A stretch of DNA of 64,000 nucleotides from Anaerolineales bacterium (GTDB lineage: Bacteria; Chloroflexota; Anaerolineae; Anaerolineales; UBA11579), in NCBI GenBank assembly GCA_026129335.1, contig JAHCIH010000003.1, positions 84,534 through 148,533 of the forward strand. The letters are read 5' to 3'. Position numbers and translations under genes: made by a program. A model generated the notes under the pieces. That model saw only the letters and a program-made list of their open reading frames with translations, searched no databases and was not told where the DNA came from. Each line of letters opens with the position of its first letter. Position 1 is the stretch's first letter. This document shows positions 20,091 through 30,008 of the stretch, piece by piece.

Positions 20091-21278
20091 TTACCCGGCG
20101 GTGAAGAAGGCGCCTTCGCCGTCGTCCGCCAGCCAGCTGTCCTGGTATTCGGTTTTTTCCATTTCCAGCGCGTCGGTGGTCAGGTGCAGCGGATTGAAGG
20201 TATCCACCATTACAGCCAGTTCGTCGGTGCTCTTCTTGCCGATCGAAGCCTCGGTGGCGCCGGGCTGCGGGCCATGCGGCAGGCCGAAGGGGTGCAGGGT
20301 GATGTCGCAGCGGTCGATGCCCTTGCGGGACATGAAGTTGCCCTCGGCGTAGTAGATCATCTCGTCTGACTGGACATTGGAGTGGTTGTAGGGCGCCGGG
20401 ATGGCGTCTGGGTGGTAGTCGTACAAACGCGGCACGAAGGAGCACAGCACAAAGCCGCGCCCCTGGAAGGTCTGGTGGGTAGGCGGGGGCAGGTGCAGCG
20501 CGCCGGTGCTCGGCTCGAAGTCGTGGATGCTGAAAATCCAGGGATATAAATAGCCGTCCCAGCCGACCACATCGTGCGGGTGGTGGTCGAGGATGTGGCG
20601 GCTGATCGTGTCACGCACTTTGACGCGCACTTCGAAGTCGCCCTGGTCGGTGTGGGTCTCAAGCTGCTGGGGCACCTGGTAATCGCGCTCGCTGAACGGC
20701 GCATGCTCGCCCAACTGGCCGTATTCGTTGCGATAGCGCCGGGGCGGCTCGATGTGTGAGGGGGTCTCAACGACCAGGAAGCGCGCCTCGGGGCCGGAGA
20801 GCTCCATCTTCCAGGTGGTGCCGAAGGGGATGACCACGTAGTCGCCCGGCTCGAAATCGAGCACGCCGAACTGGGTGCGCAGCACGCCGCTGCCTTCGTG
20901 GACGTACCAGCACTCGTAGGCCTGCGCGTTGCGATAGTAGTAGTCCATGCTCTTGGCCGGCCGGCTGAGTCCGATGGTCACATCGTTGTTGCCCATCAGC
21001 ACCCGGCGGGCCTCCACCGGGTCGCCGCCCGCCGGCATGTCGGCCGACTTGAAAGCGCGGTGGCGGATGGCGCCAAAGTCCACATAGCTCGGCTTGGCCG
21101 GGCCGAGCAGCTCCGCCTTTTTGACCCGTGGCGGCAGGAAGTGATGGTAGAGCAGCGACTGGATGCCCGAGAAGCCCTCCAGGCCCATGACCTCTTCGCG
21201 GTACAGGCCGCCGTTGGGCTTGCGGAACTGGGTATGACGCTTCTTGGGGATTTCACCGAGGGAGTGGTAAAAGGGCAT
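20091..21278 (-). CDS. hmgA: Homogentisate 1,2-dioxygenase
   Basis: 395 aa. Opens the homogentisate ring to maleylacetoacetate using Fe(II) and O2. The cupin metal site is visible: His in PYNHSNVQSDE, Glu in that same stretch, and His in GLPHGPQPG. Other conserved segments are NDVTIGL and GDYVVIPFGTTW. AAGGAG precedes the ATG. Belongs with HPPD and the fumarylacetoacetase-family gene upstream; an S23 gene separates it from the latter. No maleylacetoacetate isomerase gene is nearby. Confidence 0.93.
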   Translation of the reverse strand: MPFYHSLGEIPKKRHTQFRKPNGGLYREEVMGLEGFSGIQSLLYHHFLPPRVKKAELLGPAKPSYVDFGAIRHRAFKSADMPAGGDPVEARRVLMGNNDVTIGLSRPAKSMDYYYRNAQAYECWYVHEGSGVLRTQFGVLDFEPGDYVVIPFGTTWKMELSGPEARFLVVETPSHIEPPRRYRNEYGQLGEHAPFSERDYQVPQQLETHTDQGDFEVRVKVRDTISRHILDHHPHDVVGWDGYLYPWIFSIHDFEPSTGALHLPPPTHQTFQGRGFVLCSFVPRLYDYHPDAIPAPYNHSNVQSDEMIYYAEGNFMSRKGIDRCDITLHPFGLPHGPQPGATEASIGKKSTDELAVMVDTFNPLHLTTDALEMEKTEYQDSWLADDGEGAFFTAG

Positions 21279-21305
21279 GGGAACTCCTTAATTGGCGGTC
21301 AGCTA

Positions 21306-21665
21306 TCAGCGGTCAGCATTCAGCTTTTTCATGAAAGAGCTGAGCATCTTTTTGATCTCAACAACCTGTTGGCTGAGACTTGCATGAATTTCTTTGCTGA
21401 TGAATTTTAGCTCAAATGCCAAAAGGAGTTGGTATTCCAGTTCACTGGCCGAGCCGAAAGCGATCTGCAGCATTCTACGCATATCCGCATCACTGCCACG
21501 CCCTGCGCCTTCTGCGATGTTCGAAGGAATCGAGACTGCCGATCTTCGGATTTGACTGGTTAGACCGTAGAGTTCCGAACTGGGGAAGCTTGTAGTGGCC
21601 TTGTAGATCTCAAGGACCAGCTTATGCGACTTTTCCCAGACCTGTAGTTTTCGGAAATCTTTCAT
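21306..21665 (-). CDS. Four-helix-bundle protein, S23/IVP family
   Basis: 119 aa from ATG 21665 (MKDFRKLQVWEKSHKLVLEIYK). Conserved family features: LTSQIRRSAVSIPSNIAEGAGR and FGSASELEYQL. The family, first seen encoded in 23S rRNA intervening sequences, is widespread and of unknown function. Here it sits between two tyrosine-degradation genes, and both its flanks are heptanucleotide repeats; its C-terminal residues LNADR and stop are repeat-encoded. This suggests insertion into a pre-existing operon. Confidence 0.9.
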   Translation of the reverse strand: MKDFRKLQVWEKSHKLVLEIYKATTSFPSSELYGLTSQIRRSAVSIPSNIAEGAGRGSDADMRRMLQIAFGSASELEYQLLLAFELKFISKEIHASLSQQVVEIKKMLSSFMKKLNADR

Positions 21666-21677
21666 CGCCCTTGGTCG

Positions 21678-21712
21678 GCTGACTGCTGACTGCTGACCGC
21701 TGAGTGCTAGGT
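21678..21712. repeat. Heptanucleotide array GCTGACT x2, GCTGACC, GCTGAGT, GCTAGGT
   Basis: Five 7-base units between the S23 gene and the fumarylacetoacetase-family gene, overlapping the stop codon of the latter. A related array (GCTGAAT, GCTGACC, GCTGATA, GCTGACC on the minus strand) lies at the other end of the S23 gene around 21296-21323. Confidence 0.8.
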
Positions 21713-22624
21713 TGCTAGAACTACTCTGTTTTGCAAGACTCCAATACCATCGATTGCCAATTCTACGAGGTCCCCCCCCTGCAACCACGGCCCTTCGCCT
21801 TTAGTCAGCTCCAGCAGGCAGCCGGTGCCCACGGTGCCCGAGCCGATCACGTCGCCGGGCTGCAGTTCGACGCCCTGCGAGGCGCGGGCGATGATTTCGC
21901 CGAAAGAGTAATGGATGTCACTCCAGTTGCCCCGCGAGCGCTCTTCGCCGTTCACCCGGGCGACCATGCTGGCGTTATACACGCCGGGGCGGCCGGCGTT
22001 GGCCTTTTCCAGTTCGCCTGGGGTCACGATCCAGGGGCCAAGGCTGGTGGCGAAGTCCTTGCCCTTGGCTGGGCCGAGGCCCACTTTCATTTCTTTGCGC
22101 TGCACATCCCGCGCCGACCAGTCGTTCATGATGGTGAAGCCGAAGACGTGCTCCATGGCCTCATCCGGGGCGATGTCCTTGCCCGGGCGGCCGATGACCG
22201 CGGCCACCTCCAACTCGTAATCCAACGCCTGGGTGTAGGCCGGCATTTTCACACCTTCGCCGGGGCCGTGGATGGTGTGCGGGTTGGTGAAGTAGAAGAC
22301 GGGGAACTCGTACCATTCGGCGGGCACTTCGCGACCGCGGTTCTGGCTGGCGGTGCGCACATGCGTCTCGAAGGCGTAGAAGTCGCGCAGCGTGGGCGGG
22401 CGGCGCAGCGGTGCGCCCAGGGCCACCTCGGCTAGCGGCCAGACGGATTGCGTTTGGCGGGCGACCAGTTCGGCTAGCGCCCACATCTCCGGCCCGGCCT
22501 GGATCAGCGCCAGCATGTCCTGCGGCAGGTCGCCGCGGGCCAGCGAAACCACCCGGTCTTCGGCAATCACCGCGCCGAGGCGCGGCCGCTCTTCACCGGG
22601 CGGAGTGAAACTCAGATAGCGCAT
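21707..22624 (-). CDS. Fumarylacetoacetate hydrolase family protein
   Basis: 305 aa. The catalytic fold begins near LRDFYAFETHVRTASQNRG; metal-binding acids are in DYELEVAAVIGRPGKDI and FGFTIMNDWSARDVQ. The pathway context (next to HPPD and homogentisate dioxygenase) makes fumarylacetoacetase the likely activity, giving fumarate and acetoacetate. FAH-family members can also be hydratases or decarboxylases. Starts 6 bases after the HPPD stop. Confidence 0.87.
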   Translation of the reverse strand: MRYLSFTPPGEERPRLGAVIAEDRVVSLARGDLPQDMLALIQAGPEMWALAELVARQTQSVWPLAEVALGAPLRRPPTLRDFYAFETHVRTASQNRGREVPAEWYEFPVFYFTNPHTIHGPGEGVKMPAYTQALDYELEVAAVIGRPGKDIAPDEAMEHVFGFTIMNDWSARDVQRKEMKVGLGPAKGKDFATSLGPWIVTPGELEKANAGRPGVYNASMVARVNGEERSRGNWSDIHYSFGEIIARASQGVELQPGDVIGSGTVGTGCLLELTKGEGPWLQGGDLVELAIDGIGVLQNRVVLAT

Positions 22625-22630
22625 GGGCCG

Positions 22631-23764
22631 CTAGTTGTCCAGGTTGCCCCGGCGTTCCTGCTCCAGCTCCAGGGCTTCAAAGAGCGCCTTGAAGTTGCCC
22701 TTGCCGAAGCCGCGGCTGCCGTGACGTTGGATGACCTCGATAAAAGAAGTCGGCCGGTCTTGCACCGGGCGGGAGAAGATCTGCAGCAGGTAGCCTTCGT
22801 CGTCGCGGTCGACCAGAATGCCCAGCTCATTGATCTCGTCCAGCGGTTCCTTGATGATGTCGCCGACGCGCTCGGGCAGCAGGTCGTAGTAGGCATCCGG
22901 CACGCGCAGGAACTCGATGCCGTTGGCTTTCAGTTGGCGCACGGTGCTGAGGATATCGCCGGTGGCGATGGCGATGTGCTGCACCCCGGGGCCCAGGTAA
23001 TAGTCCAGGTATTCTTCGATTTGGCTCTTCTTCTTGCCCTCGGCGGGCTCATTGATCGGGAACTTGACCCGCCCGTTGCCATTCTCCATCACCTTGGACA
23101 TCAGCGCCGAGTACTCGGTGCTGATGTCTTTGTCGTCGAAGTGCAGCAGCTGGCGGAAGCCCATCACGCGATGGTAGAAGTTGACCCAATAGTCCATCTT
23201 GCCCAACTGCACATTGCCCACTACGTGGTCAATGGCGGCCAGGCCGGTCGACTCGGCCTCGTAGTCCAGCGGCTGGTAGCCGGGAGCGAAAGGCCCCTTG
23301 TAGTCGCTGCGGTCCACGAAGACGTGCAGCACCTCGCCGTAGGTGTGGATGGCCGAGGTGCGGTAGACACCGAATTCGTCCTTCTCCTCCCGCGGCGCCC
23401 AGGCGCTCTGCCCGCCGCGGGAAGTGGTCGCCTTCCAGGCGTCCTCCACGTCTTTGACCTGAATGGCGATGACCTTGACGCCATCGCCATGGGTCATGTG
23501 GTGGCCGGCCATCTCCTGCGAGGGGCCATAGGGTGCGGAGACCACAAAGCGTACTTTGCCGGATTCGAGCACGTACGAGGCAAACTGGCGGTTGCCGGTT
23601 TCCAGGCCGGAATAGGCCACCGGCTTGAAGCCGAAGCCCTTCCACCACCAGTACATGGATTGTTTGGCATTGCCCACGTAGAAATGCAGGTGGTCAATCG
23701 CTTGAATTTGAAGATGGTCGCCCTCTTCGGTCATCGGGCGGGTTTCGGTAGTCGCTTGCGCCAT
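22631..23764 (-). CDS. hppD: 4-hydroxyphenylpyruvate dioxygenase
   Basis: 377 aa. Converts 4-hydroxyphenylpyruvate to homogentisate. Two VOC-fold halves are present; Fe(II) ligands are His in AAIDHVVGNV, His in GVQHIAIAT, and Glu in SFIEVIQR. The C-terminal GFGKGNFKALFEALELEQERRG is a family hallmark. First gene of the tyrosine operon. TATAAT on the minus strand at 23803-23798 is a likely -10 element, and GGAG lies 8 bases before the ATG. Confidence 0.95.
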   Translation of the reverse strand: MAQATTETRPMTEEGDHLQIQAIDHLHFYVGNAKQSMYWWWKGFGFKPVAYSGLETGNRQFASYVLESGKVRFVVSAPYGPSQEMAGHHMTHGDGVKVIAIQVKDVEDAWKATTSRGGQSAWAPREEKDEFGVYRTSAIHTYGEVLHVFVDRSDYKGPFAPGYQPLDYEAESTGLAAIDHVVGNVQLGKMDYWVNFYHRVMGFRQLLHFDDKDISTEYSALMSKVMENGNGRVKFPINEPAEGKKKSQIEEYLDYYLGPGVQHIAIATGDILSTVRQLKANGIEFLRVPDAYYDLLPERVGDIIKEPLDEINELGILVDRDDEGYLLQIFSRPVQDRPTSFIEVIQRHGSRGFGKGNFKALFEALELEQERRGNLDN

Positions 23765-25489: not shown

Positions 25490-26767
25490 GTGACCAGCAG
25501 TTCCCGCTTGCCCGGTTTTTACGACCTGCCCCTGGCCGAACGCCAGGCGCGTTTGCGCGCCTTGGCTGTGCTCAGCGAGACCGAGCTGGCTGCCCTGGCC
25601 AATGGCGGCCTGACCCCGGAAGCCGCCGACCCCATGATCGAGAACGTGGTCGGCACCTTCAACCTTCCGCTAGGTATCGCGCTGAACTTCATGGTCAATG
25701 ATCGTGAAGTGCTGGTGCCCATGGCCGTCGAGGAACCCTCCGTGGTCGCCGGCGCGTCGTTCATGGCCAAGCTGGCCCGGCCCGCCGGCGGCTTCCGCAC
25801 GAGCGCCGACGAGCCGCTGATGATTGGCCAGATGCAATTGTTGGCCGCGCCGGACCTGGACGCGGCCGCCGCGGCCATCGCCGCCGCCGAAGGCGAACTG
25901 CTCCCCGAGGCGGCGGGCATTGACCCTGTGCTGCAAAAGCTGGGCGGCGGGCCGCGCGGCCTGGAAATCCGCCGTATCGACAACTCGCCCATCGGGCCCT
26001 TCCTGGTCATCCACCTCATCTACGACGTGCGCGACGCGATGGGCGCCAACGCGGTCAACACCGCTTGCGAGCGCCTGGCGCCGCGCATCGAAGCGCTGAC
26101 TGGCGGCCGGGTGCACCTGCGCATCCTCAGCAATCTGGCCGACCGCCGCCTGGCCCGCGCCGAGTGCACCATTCAGCTGGACCAGTTGGCCTTCGGTGAT
26201 TTCTCTGCCGAGCAGGTGCGTGACGGCATCATCGAAGCCTGGGCCTTCGCCGACGCCGACCCCTACCGAGCGGCCACGCACAACAAAGGCATCATGAACG
26301 GCATCGACGCGGTGGTCATCGCCACCGGCAACGACTGGCGCGCCGTGGAAGCCGGCGCACACGCCTACGCGGCCCGCTCTGGGCGCTACACCTCACTGAG
26401 CACCTGGGGCAAAGATGCTGATGGCAACCTTGTCGGATCGCTGGAGCTGCCCATGGCCGTCGGCATCGTCGGCGGGGCCACTAAGGTGCACCCCAGCGCC
26501 CAGGCGGCGCTCAAGCTGATGGGCGTGAGCACCGCCGCCGAGCTGGCCCAGATCATCACCGCCGTCGGCCTGGCGCAGAACTTGGCCGCCCTGCGCGCCC
26601 TGGCCACCGAGGGCATCCAGCGCGGCCACATGAGCCTGCATGCTCGCCAGGTGGCCATCGCCGCCGGCGCGACCGGCGAGCAGATCGAGCGCCTCGCTGC
26701 GCAGCTGGTCGCCGAGAAGACCGTGCGCGTGGACCGCGCCGAAGAGATATTGAAAGAATGGCAATAA
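25490..26767 (+). CDS. mvaA: Hydroxymethylglutaryl-CoA reductase, class II
   Basis: 425 aa from GTG 25490. Interconverts HMG-CoA and mevalonate. Class II motifs and catalytic residues are intact: Glu in [15 protein letters not shown], Lys in [10 protein letters not shown], Asp in [21 protein letters not shown], and His in [13 protein letters not shown]. There is no membrane anchor. Although class II enzymes were first known as degradative, the adjacent HMG-CoA synthase points to isoprenoid biosynthesis here. No strong Shine-Dalgarno is seen. mvaS follows after 1 base. Confidence 0.95.
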
Positions 26768-26768
26768 G

Positions 26769-27854
26769 ATGACCGAACAACCCCACACTCACGAACCCGT
26801 CCGCCTGCTCAAGCCGGAGCACCCCGTCGGCATCGTCGGCTACGGCGCCTATGTGCCACGCTACCGCCTGCCGGCCCGCGAGGTGGCCCGCGTCTGGACC
26901 GATGGCACGGCTGGCCTGCCCATCATCGAGAAGTCCGTGCCCGGCCTGGACGAAGACGTAGCCACCATGTCCATCGAGGCCGCCCGCAACGCCATGGCCC
27001 GCGCCCAGATCAGCCCGCAGGAACTGCGCGCTGTCTGGGTCGGCTCGGAGTCGCATCCCTACGCGGTCAAGCCCACCTCCACGCTGGTGGCCGAGGCCAT
27101 CGGCGCGGTGCCCAGCACCCAGGCCGCCGACTGGGAGTTCGCCTGCAAGGCGGGCACCGAAGCCATGGTGGCGGCGATGGGCTTCGTCGGCTCCGGCATG
27201 GCGCGCTACGCGCTGGCCATCGGCATGGACACCGCCCAGGGCCGCCCCGGCGACGCTCTGGAGTACACCGCCGGGGCGGGCGGGGCGGCTTTCGTCATCG
27301 GCCCGGCCGAAGAGTCGCTCGCCGAGATCGAAAGCTCATATTCCTTTGTCACCGACACGCCGGATTTCTGGCGGCGGCAGTATGCCAAGTATCCGGAGCA
27401 CGGCCAGCGCTTCACCGGCGAACCGGCCTATTTCAAGCACATCACCTCTGCCGGGCAGGCCATGCTCGAAGCGACAGGCACTACGCCGGAGGACTACGCC
27501 TACGTTGTCTTCCACCAGCCGAACACCAAATTCCCGCAACGCGCCGGGGCCATGCTGGGTTTCAAGCCCGAGCAGATCGAGACCGGCCTGCTGGTGCCGC
27601 GCATCGGCAATACCTACTCCGGCGCGGCGATCATCGGCCTCACCGCCATCTTCGACATCGCCAAGCCCGGCGAACGCATCCTGCTGGTCTCCTTCGGCTC
27701 CGGCGCCGGGTCGGACGCCATGGTGCTGCGCGTCACCGACAAGATCGCCGGCAAGCCGGGGTTGGCCGCCACCACCGAAGACTACATCGCCCGCCGCACC
27801 GAGATCGACTACGCCGCGTATGTGCGCATGCGTGGGAAGTTGGAGATGAAATAA
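26769..27854 (+). CDS. mvaS: Hydroxymethylglutaryl-CoA synthase, archaeal type
   Basis: 361 aa. Condenses acetyl-CoA with acetoacetyl-CoA. The archaeal-type signature is clear: [38 protein letters not shown] (catalytic Glu), [11 protein letters not shown] (catalytic Cys) and [14 protein letters not shown] (catalytic His). All catalytic residues are present, unlike the thiolase homologue that follows. In archaea this enzyme forms a complex with thiolase and a DUF35 protein; both partners are encoded next here. Confidence 0.94.
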
Positions 27855-27933: not shown

Positions 27934-29097
27934 ATGACCAACGTCATCATCGCCGGCATCGGCCAAACACCGGTCAACGAACAGTGGGACGTCTCGCTGC
28001 GCGAGCTGGCCTTCCAGGCCATGGAAGCCGCCATGCAGGACGCCGGCGGCCTGCGGCCCAACGCGCTCTACGTGGGCAACATGCTCGCCGCGGCGCTCTC
28101 GCGCCAGGCGCAGCTCGGCGTCCTGCTGGCCGACTTCGCCGGCCTGCACGGCATCGAGGCCGCCACCATCGAGGCCGCCGGCGCATCGGCGGCCATGGCG
28201 CTGCGCGTCGGCTACCTGGCCGTCTCCTCCGGCCAGGTGGACGCCGCGCTGGTGCTGGGCGTCGAGAAACTCAGCGATCAGGTGCCTGCCGAGGTGGAGC
28301 ACGCCATGGCCATGGCCAGCGACGCCGACTACGAAGCCGAGCAGGGCCTCACGCTCACCGCGCAGGCCGCCTTGCTGGCCCAGCGCTACTTCCACGAATT
28401 CGACGTACCTCAATATGCCCTGGCCGGCTTCCCGCTCACCGCCCACGCCAACGGCGCGCACAACCCCAACGCCATGTTCCGCAAGGCGGTCAAGCCCGAA
28501 ACGTATGCCAAAGCCGGCATCGTCAGCGCGCCGCTCAACATGTTCGACGTGGCGCCGCATGCCGACGGGGCCGCCGCCCTGCTGCTGACCCGCGCCGAAC
28601 TGCTGCCGTCCAAGTTCGCCCACCCGCTGGTGGAGATCACCGGCTCCAGCGCGGTCAGCGACACCCTGGCCCTGCACGACCGGCCCGACCCGCTGGCATT
28701 CAACGCCGCCCGGCTCTCCGTGGAACGCGCCTGCAAACAAGCCGGCATCCAGCCCGGCGATGCGGACTTCTTCGAGTTGTTCGACGCCTTTTCTATATAC
28801 AGCGCCCTCTCGCTTGAGGCCGCCGGCTTCTCCGAACGCGGCGAGGGCTGGAAGTGGGCACAGAACGGCGCGTTGGCGCCGGACGGCGAGCTGCCCATCG
28901 CCACCCTGGGCGGGCTGAAAGCGCGCGGCTTCCCCGGCGGGGCCACGGGCGCGTACCAGGTCGCCGAGGCCGCCCTACAGCTGCGCGGACAGGCGGGTGG
29001 GGCGCAGGTGAACGGGGCCAAAATCGGCCTGGTCCAAAGCCTGGGCGGCCCGGCCGCCACGGCGGTGACGCATGTATTACGGACTGTAGAGGATTGA
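27934..29097 (+). CDS. Thiolase-family protein lacking the catalytic residues
   Basis: 387 aa from ATG 27934 (purine-rich GGAAGAGGAA upstream; a TTG at 27919 is the alternative). Overall it aligns with archaeal acetyl-CoA acetyltransferases (NVIIAGIGQTPV, SDTLALHDRPD, GGLKARGFPGGATGAYQ, GGPAATAVTHVL). However, the nucleophile Cys of the ACASG motif is Gly (EAAGASAAMA), the HDxF histidine is Phe (LFDAFSIY), and the GHPxGATG histidine is Phe (GFPGGATG). Predicted to be inactive as a thiolase and possibly a structural partner of HMG-CoA synthase and DUF35. The frame is intact over its whole length, so this is not simple decay. Confidence 0.85.
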   Translation: MTNVIIAGIGQTPVNEQWDVSLRELAFQAMEAAMQDAGGLRPNALYVGNMLAAALSRQAQLGVLLADFAGLHGIEAATIEAAGASAAMALRVGYLAVSSGQVDAALVLGVEKLSDQVPAEVEHAMAMASDADYEAEQGLTLTAQAALLAQRYFHEFDVPQYALAGFPLTAHANGAHNPNAMFRKAVKPETYAKAGIVSAPLNMFDVAPHADGAAALLLTRAELLPSKFAHPLVEITGSSAVSDTLALHDRPDPLAFNAARLSVERACKQAGIQPGDADFFELFDAFSIYSALSLEAAGFSERGEGWKWAQNGALAPDGELPIATLGGLKARGFPGGATGAYQVAEAALQLRGQAGGAQVNGAKIGLVQSLGGPAATAVTHVLRTVED

Positions 29098-29098
29098 G

Positions 29099-29533
29099 AT
29101 GGAGACCTTGCGAACCCGCCTGTACCAAGCCGCCGAACTGACCAACTCGCTGGCCGCCCAGCTCTCGGCCGAACAGCTCCAAAGCCACAATGGTGAGGCG
29201 CCGTCCAACAGCATTGGCGGCCAATTCTGGTGTGTGGTCGGTGCGCGGGAGAGCTACGCCCGCGCCTTCACCGCCGGCGAGTGGCAAGGCTTCGCTTGCA
29301 GCCTGCAGGACATCAAGACGCCGGGCAGCGTTCAGGCCGCCCTGGCCGCTTCGCAGACCGAGCTGCTGGACGCCCTGGCCGCCGTCGGCCAGCCCTGGGA
29401 CGACGCCCGTCTGAAGATCCTCTTCGACCTGCTCGAGCACGAGGCCCAGCACCACGGCCAGCTGATCCGTTACTTCTACGCCAACGGCATCCCCTTCCCC
29501 GCCGACTTCGCCCATCGCTATGCTTTGAGCTAA
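29099..29533 (+). CDS. DinB-like four-helix protein
   Basis: 144 aa. The helical pattern and LLEHEAQHHGQLIRYFYANG near the C-terminus match the DinB/YfiT putative metalloenzyme superfamily, whose members bind a metal through three histidines. The first expected histidine region reads QFWCVVGARESYA, so the site may be incomplete. Starts 1 base after the thiolase-like gene. No evident link to mevalonate metabolism. Confidence 0.75.
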   Translation: METLRTRLYQAAELTNSLAAQLSAEQLQSHNGEAPSNSIGGQFWCVVGARESYARAFTAGEWQGFACSLQDIKTPGSVQAALAASQTELLDALAAVGQPWDDARLKILFDLLEHEAQHHGQLIRYFYANGIPFPADFAHRYALS

Positions 29534-29600: not shown

Positions 29601-30008
29601 ATGGATATCCCGCGCCATTGGAGATTGAAGAAGCAGCGCTACGCCCTGGTCGGCGAGGTCTGCGAGCATTGCGACGCCAAGCTCTTCCCGCCCCGCGACA
29701 TCTGCCCGGAATGCGGCGAAGAGGCCAAAACCCTCTTCCAATTCAGCGGCAAGGGCGAAGTCTATTCCTACACCACCGTTTACGACGCGCCCGAAGGCTA
29801 CGCCGAGCAGGCGCCCTACACCCTGGCGATGGTCAAGCTGGCCGAAGGCCCGCTGGTCACCGCCCAACTCACCGACCTCGGCGAGCAACAGCCCGCCATC
29901 GGTATGCCGGTGGAGATGGTCACCCGCCTGCTGCGCTCCGCCACCGACGAGCGCGGCATGCTCATCTACGGCTACAAGTTCCGCCCGGCAGTCGCTCAAG
30001 CCGGCTAA
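29601..30008 (+). CDS. DUF35 OB-fold/zinc-ribbon protein
   Basis: 135 aa. N-terminal rubredoxin-like zinc ribbon with two CxxC pairs (GEVCEHCDAKLFPPRDICPECGEE), then an OB fold (GEVYSYTTVYDAP, PYTLAMVKLAEGPLVTAQL). In archaea DUF35 bridges thiolase and HMG-CoA synthase and helps bind CoA. Its presence here argues that the thiolase homologue and synthase form an equivalent complex. AGGAG precedes the ATG. Confidence 0.9.
   Translation: MDIPRHWRLKKQRYALVGEVCEHCDAKLFPPRDICPECGEEAKTLFQFSGKGEVYSYTTVYDAPEGYAEQAPYTLAMVKLAEGPLVTAQLTDLGEQQPAIGMPVEMVTRLLRSATDERGMLIYGYKFRPAVAQAG

Follow-up and report, generated by a model that had tools for sequence, protein, structure and literature searches.

For substrate channelling into the mevalonate pathway, the archaeal thiolase/HMG-CoA synthase complex serves as the textbook case. 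In this assembly, a DUF35 protein joins the thiolase to the synthase, and the CoA interface is built from residues of all three proteins (PMC6392133; PMC12329534). In PhlACB of Pseudomonas protegens (PDB 5M3K), the PhlA subunit lacks the Cys (Gly115) and the Glu and is still required for the active assembly (PMC6392133). The steroid side-chain aldolases Ltp2 and Sal combine a thiolase fold and a DUF35 partner with a Tyr at the HDxF position (PMC12329534), and ST0096 of Sulfolobus tokodaii (PDB 4YZO) is an archaeal thiolase-like protein with Ser at the Cys position. No earlier description of a dead thiolase in an archaeal-type complex was found in the open literature searched.

Here, a stretch of 64,000 nucleotides from an Anaerolineales bacterium (the window) was analysed, whose source genome (G000) is a Chloroflexota MAG of 2.0 Mb and 72% completeness; below, G, L, f and g numbers denote our genomes, loci, families and genera. 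The window carries, on one strand and in this order, genes for HMG-CoA reductase (HMGR), HMG-CoA synthase (mvaS), a thiolase homologue, a DinB-like protein and a DUF35 protein (Table 1). The three protein families of the archaeal complex (Methanothermococcus thermolithotrophicus, PDB 6ESQ/6ET9) are likewise encoded together, the thiolase is similar over its full length (E 9e-57), the synthase has all of its catalytic Glu, Cys, His and Asn residues, and the four zinc-binding Cys of DUF35 are present. Unlike its archaeal counterpart, the thiolase homologue of the window lacks the nucleophilic Cys as well as the two catalytic His, and channelling from the thiolase subunit could not operate in the published way. 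By sequence and gene context, the protein is best placed as the thiolase-position subunit of an archaeal-type complex; we refer to it as a pseudothiolase. A diphosphomevalonate decarboxylase-like protein, recognised by motif only, is also encoded on the contig of the window. Only in close relatives (L039-L041, L043, L203, L205, L206) did the DinB-like gene accompany the operon.

Table 1. Positions of the mevalonate genes, the altered codons and the neighbouring genes in the window.
Feature	Position	Strand	Evidence or remark
Homogentisate-type genes adjoining the mevalonate cluster: HgmA-like, fumarylacetoacetate hydrolase family, HPPD-like	20091-23764	-	
23S rRNA intervening-sequence-type protein, among the homogentisate-type genes	21306-21788		
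Class II-type HMG-CoA reductase, opening the cluster	25490-26767	+	Pfam HMG-CoA_red E 1e-111; TIGR00532 above cut-off
mvaS, archaeal-type HMG-CoA synthase	26769-27854	+	TIGR00748 532.4 bits vs cut-off 353.35; Glu/Cys/His kept
Pseudothiolase (homologue of archaeal-type thiolases, catalytic residues absent)	27934-29097	+	Profile matches and alignment to solved thiolases
Codon 83, Gly for nucleophilic Cys	28180-28182	+	Alignment to 7yvy and 6esq
Codon 283, Phe for HDxF His	28780-28782	+	Alignment to 7yvy and 6esq
Codon 333, Phe for GHP His	28930-28932	+	Alignment to 7yvy and 6esq
DinB-like protein between thiolase and DUF35	29099-29533	+	Pfam DinB E 2e-4, below cut-off
DUF35 (ChsH2-type zinc ribbon and OB fold), expected thiolase-synthase bridge	29601-30008	+	PF01796 E 2e-20; PF12172 E 1e-7

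The pseudothiolase frame comprises 387 codons and a stop without interruption, as the original prediction had stated, and it matched full-length both an acetyl-CoA acetyltransferase (7yvy, E 4e-97) and the acetoacetyl-CoA thiolase of the archaeal complex (6esq), the two alignments covering 381-383 residues. Aligned to these solved thiolases, Gly83 lies opposite the nucleophilic Cys (IEAAGAS vs IEAACAS), Phe283 opposite the HDxF His (LFDAF vs VHDAF) and Phe333 opposite the GHP His (GFPGG vs GHPVG). The three substitutions originally read from the letters were thereby reproduced exactly, as was the intact Glu, Cys and His set of the adjacent synthase. The Pfam models PF22691 and PF00108 scored above their cut-offs; the scores for the NCBIfam models AcCoTHIOL_METTL (298.5 vs 600 bits) and PRK06064 (361.6 vs 420 bits) fell below the curated cut-offs. 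Regarding EC 2.3.1.9, the protein has the fold and the full-length similarity, but it lacks the Cys and both His and stays below the NCBIfam cut-offs. Judged by its residues, it is no acetoacetyl-CoA thiolase and would be inactive in this reaction. The thiolase fold was assigned by sequence similarity to solved structures; an AlphaFold2 monomer built from a shallow alignment of six sequences gave a pLDDT of 33. Reverse translation of the minus strand at the locus gave no sign of a gene.

Close relatives of the pseudothiolase gene were detected in 22 of the 24 genomes of the family, the genome of the window included. These orthologues share 61-95% identity with the pseudothiolase of the window, and all have Gly83, with Phe, Tyr or His at position 283 and Phe, Asn or Tyr at position 333; the complete Gly/Phe/Phe combination recurs in all nine other gene-carrying genomes of the genus. 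Because every gene-carrying member of the family shows the change, a local mutation or sequencing error was rejected, and the nine genus genomes together with the family-wide Gly83 exclude error or chance. Further relatives were collected from the order, the class and the phylum, and the following counts refer to loci with enough flanking sequence. Cys83 was absent from 69/69 mvaS-adjacent copies belonging to one thiolase clade, which extends beyond the order of the window to further orders and a second class of Chloroflexota, and the synthase kept Glu, Cys, His and Asn in all 69 of these operons. Among the 68 members analysed by column, position 83 is Gly in 51 and Asp in 11, the rest having Gln, Asn, Ser or Glu and none Cys; position 283 is His in 25 and Tyr in 7, otherwise Phe, Ser, Thr, Asp, Cys or Trp; and position 333 is Asn, Asp, Phe, Tyr or Glu in 66. 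As for the proposed check of Gly/Phe/Phe in Chloroflexi homologues, the loss of Cys83 held throughout the clade and that of the GHP His nearly so, but the two Phe are confined to near relatives. Sister species, in which an intact Cys/His/His set would have pointed to a local mutation, lack this set as well. The window and most clade members with full flanks have the thiolase homologue on the same strand and in the same order with HMG-CoA synthase and DUF35.

The origin of the clade was addressed with a thiolase tree from which columns 83, 283, 285 and 333 had been removed. All 45 sampled pseudothiolases formed one clade (94/94 support) apart from the intact copies, and this clade was placed among intact Cys/His/His copies with the same HMGR-mvaS-thiolase-DUF35 gene order; intact copies adjacent to mvaS numbered 25. 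At positions 83/283/333, early branches have Asp/His/Asn or Asp/His/His, middle branches Gly/His/Asp, and the genus of the window Gly/Phe/Phe. The series looks as though the nucleophile was lost once, long ago, with erosion proceeding step by step thereafter. The early branches retain the HDxF His together with Asp or Gln at position 83, and some thiolase activity is possible in them. In the mvaS tree, which is weakly resolved, three early pseudothiolase loci (L139, L163, L202) fell among lineages with intact operons, so between one and three losses may have occurred, the thiolase tree favouring one.

Strong purifying selection acts on the pseudothiolase gene: in comparisons of the window with its two closest relatives, this gene has a dN/dS of ~0.06, where mvaS has 0.05-0.09 and HMGR 0.08-0.12. 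A pseudogene was ruled out by the dN/dS values and the intact frames. Intact copies share 86 invariant positions, 44 of which remain at least 97% conserved in the pseudothiolase clade. Glu281 and Asp284 are retained; Phe141 and Asn145, both invariant in intact copies, are wholly replaced. Loss of conservation was concentrated near the catalytic loops (8/22 positions within 4 residues vs 6/64 elsewhere, p 0.006). Taken together, the dN/dS values, the retained invariant positions and the losses at the catalytic loops indicate that the fold is selected and thiolase chemistry is not. The earlier suggestion that the protein had become a pseudoenzyme gained strong support from the clade-wide residue loss, the purifying selection and the constant operon position, and we regard this status as very probable.

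Intact paralogues do exist in 28 genomes, and the operon copy is gone from genus g35, as would be expected of a duplicate being lost once an intact paralogue had taken over; however, such decay is hardly tenable for a gene with a dN/dS of ~0.06, intact frames throughout and a fixed operon position, which has been kept over many families and in a second class. Another reading is that the pocket catalyses a different CoA-thioester reaction, in the manner of Ltp2 and Sal, which also have a thiolase fold and a DUF35 partner and work without the usual nucleophilic Cys (PMC12329534). Several clade members have Tyr at position 283, and the retained Glu281 and Asp284 would be available to such chemistry. 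However, the catalytic Tyr of these aldolases (YDHF/YDCY) is missing from the protein of the window, steroid genes are absent nearby and the operon is purely mevalonate. Moreover, the genus of the window has Phe at both 283 and 333, neither an acid nor a base, and no new catalytic set is conserved in the clade, position 283 varying among His, Phe, Ser, Tyr, Thr, Asp, Cys and Trp and position 333 among Asn, Asp, Phe, Tyr, Glu and His. A repurposed enzyme is for these reasons improbable. ST0096 resembles the pseudothiolase in the substituted Cys, but its HD and GHP His are retained.

With regard to the first step of the pathway, a classical acetyl-CoA acetyltransferase scoring above the curated cut-off was present in 64/64 genomes searched (24 + 40). 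That of the source genome (L002, G000:C42:53524-54693) contains both catalytic Cys motifs and GHP (KVCGSG, CLGGA, GHPLGASG). With classical thiolases in all searched genomes, that of the window included, acetoacetyl-CoA can come from elsewhere, in agreement with the original prediction. In addition, an intact (Cys/His/His) archaeal-type paralogue, usually located away from mvaS, accompanies the pseudothiolase in 28 genomes, and at L154 both occur in one operon in the order mvaS, pseudothiolase, DUF35, intact thiolase. The presence of both copies might suggest that the pseudothiolase is still a thiolase, either by unusual residues or by forming a heterodimer in which the intact paralogue gives the active site. 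We consider this highly improbable: in the genus of the window, position 83 offers neither Cys nor Ser nor Thr as a nucleophile, and in the genus members whose chromosome is a single contig (L204, L207) the only archaeal-type paralogue is also without the Cys.

A stand-alone thiolase-like paralogue of this kind, in which Thr, Ser or Met takes the place of the Cys and the HDAF and GHP motifs are kept, was observed as a second copy at L204, L207, L213, L221, L222 and L141. It fell outside the pseudothiolase clade in our first tree and has apparently lost the nucleophile independently. At L204 it adjoins genes for XdhC/CoxI and a molybdenum-hydroxylase FAD subunit.

Overall, we assign a probability of roughly 0.68 to the reading that an archaeal-type thiolase/DUF35/HMG-CoA synthase complex contains the protein as a catalytically dead subunit of thiolase fold, kept for assembly and for the CoA site that the subunits share, while acetoacetyl-CoA comes from a source outside the complex; the physical complex, the contribution to the CoA site, the inactivity and the loss of channelling are what we infer. 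The pseudothiolase would still pair with DUF35 and HMG-CoA synthase, hold the assembly together and form its part of the common cleft for CoA. Condensation to acetoacetyl-CoA would be carried out by a separate active thiolase, and the synthase would take acetoacetyl-CoA from the bulk pool rather than as a channelled intermediate. If the synthase relies on the thiolase subunit for its CoA site and its assembly, the subunit would be indispensable despite the outside thiolase supply. PhlACB, a homologous complex of three parts with one dead subunit among its two from the thiolase superfamily, is the nearest functional parallel. There, however, the HMG-CoA-synthase-like PhlA is dead and the thiolase-like PhlC works; in Chloroflexota the roles would be reversed, and the pathway is that of mevalonate.

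The distribution of the genes is consistent with such dependence. It would follow from the need of the synthase for its subunit that the pseudothiolase is tied to mvaS and that stand-alone copies in the sister clade are intact. The operons of family f2 (L160, L161) contain HMGR, mvaS, DUF35 and an intact thiolase of the stand-alone clade, and the pseudothiolase is absent; here it has apparently been replaced by the stand-alone-clade copy. In genus g35, the operon copy was not found and an intact one was present in 4/6 genomes. Intact replacement in f2 and g35 would fit the dependence reading. In four genomes without the pseudothiolase (G055, G078, G094, G128), an intact paralogue lies outside the operon.

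Other observations argue against strict dependence. In G067 and G086 (genus g35, 88-90% complete) and G288 (96%), all of them drafts, mvaS had no detected close thiolase partner alongside, so dependence is common rather than proven obligate. Most other cases without the thiolase were contig ends or fragments, and of the 35 thiolase-less genomes in the set, 23 also had no mvaS match. DUF35 no longer has its zinc-binding Cys in 14 related genomes from another class and at L196 and L212 (L123-L135, L138, L196 and L212 altogether), all with pseudothiolases, while the DUF35 proteins beside intact thiolases keep them in 28/28 cases; the complex may thus be undergoing further changes. A search for candidate interface residues, common to operon copies and absent from stand-alone paralogues, yielded two weak positions only.

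The evolutionary pattern described above would be identical if, instead of serving as a scaffold, the pocket bound CoA, acetyl-CoA or acetoacetyl-CoA unreacted and gated HMG-CoA synthase, and in the archaeal complex CoA does lie at the three-subunit interface (PMC6392133). However, several residues near the catalytic loops that are invariant in intact copies have been lost, and a regulatory pseudoenzyme of this kind is clearly on the unlikely side. As a speculation with a minor yet appreciable chance, the dead pocket might be a non-catalytic CoA/acetoacetyl-CoA site gating the synthase, in which case a channelling complex would have turned into a bulk-fed one controlled by its former first enzyme.

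Genes of this type call for caution in annotation, since they are readily counted as acetyl-CoA acetyltransferase; where a reconstructed pathway or an operon built for engineering relies on them, the first step would be missing. Within Chloroflexota, a large clade of bacteria has retained the gene set of the complex although the catalytic residues of its channelling enzyme are lost, and living relatives show the intact stage as well as partial and full degradation. These stages make it testable whether the synthase needs the thiolase subunit for structure and CoA binding apart from catalysis, and by which route a bifunctional complex may come to depend on a dead partner.
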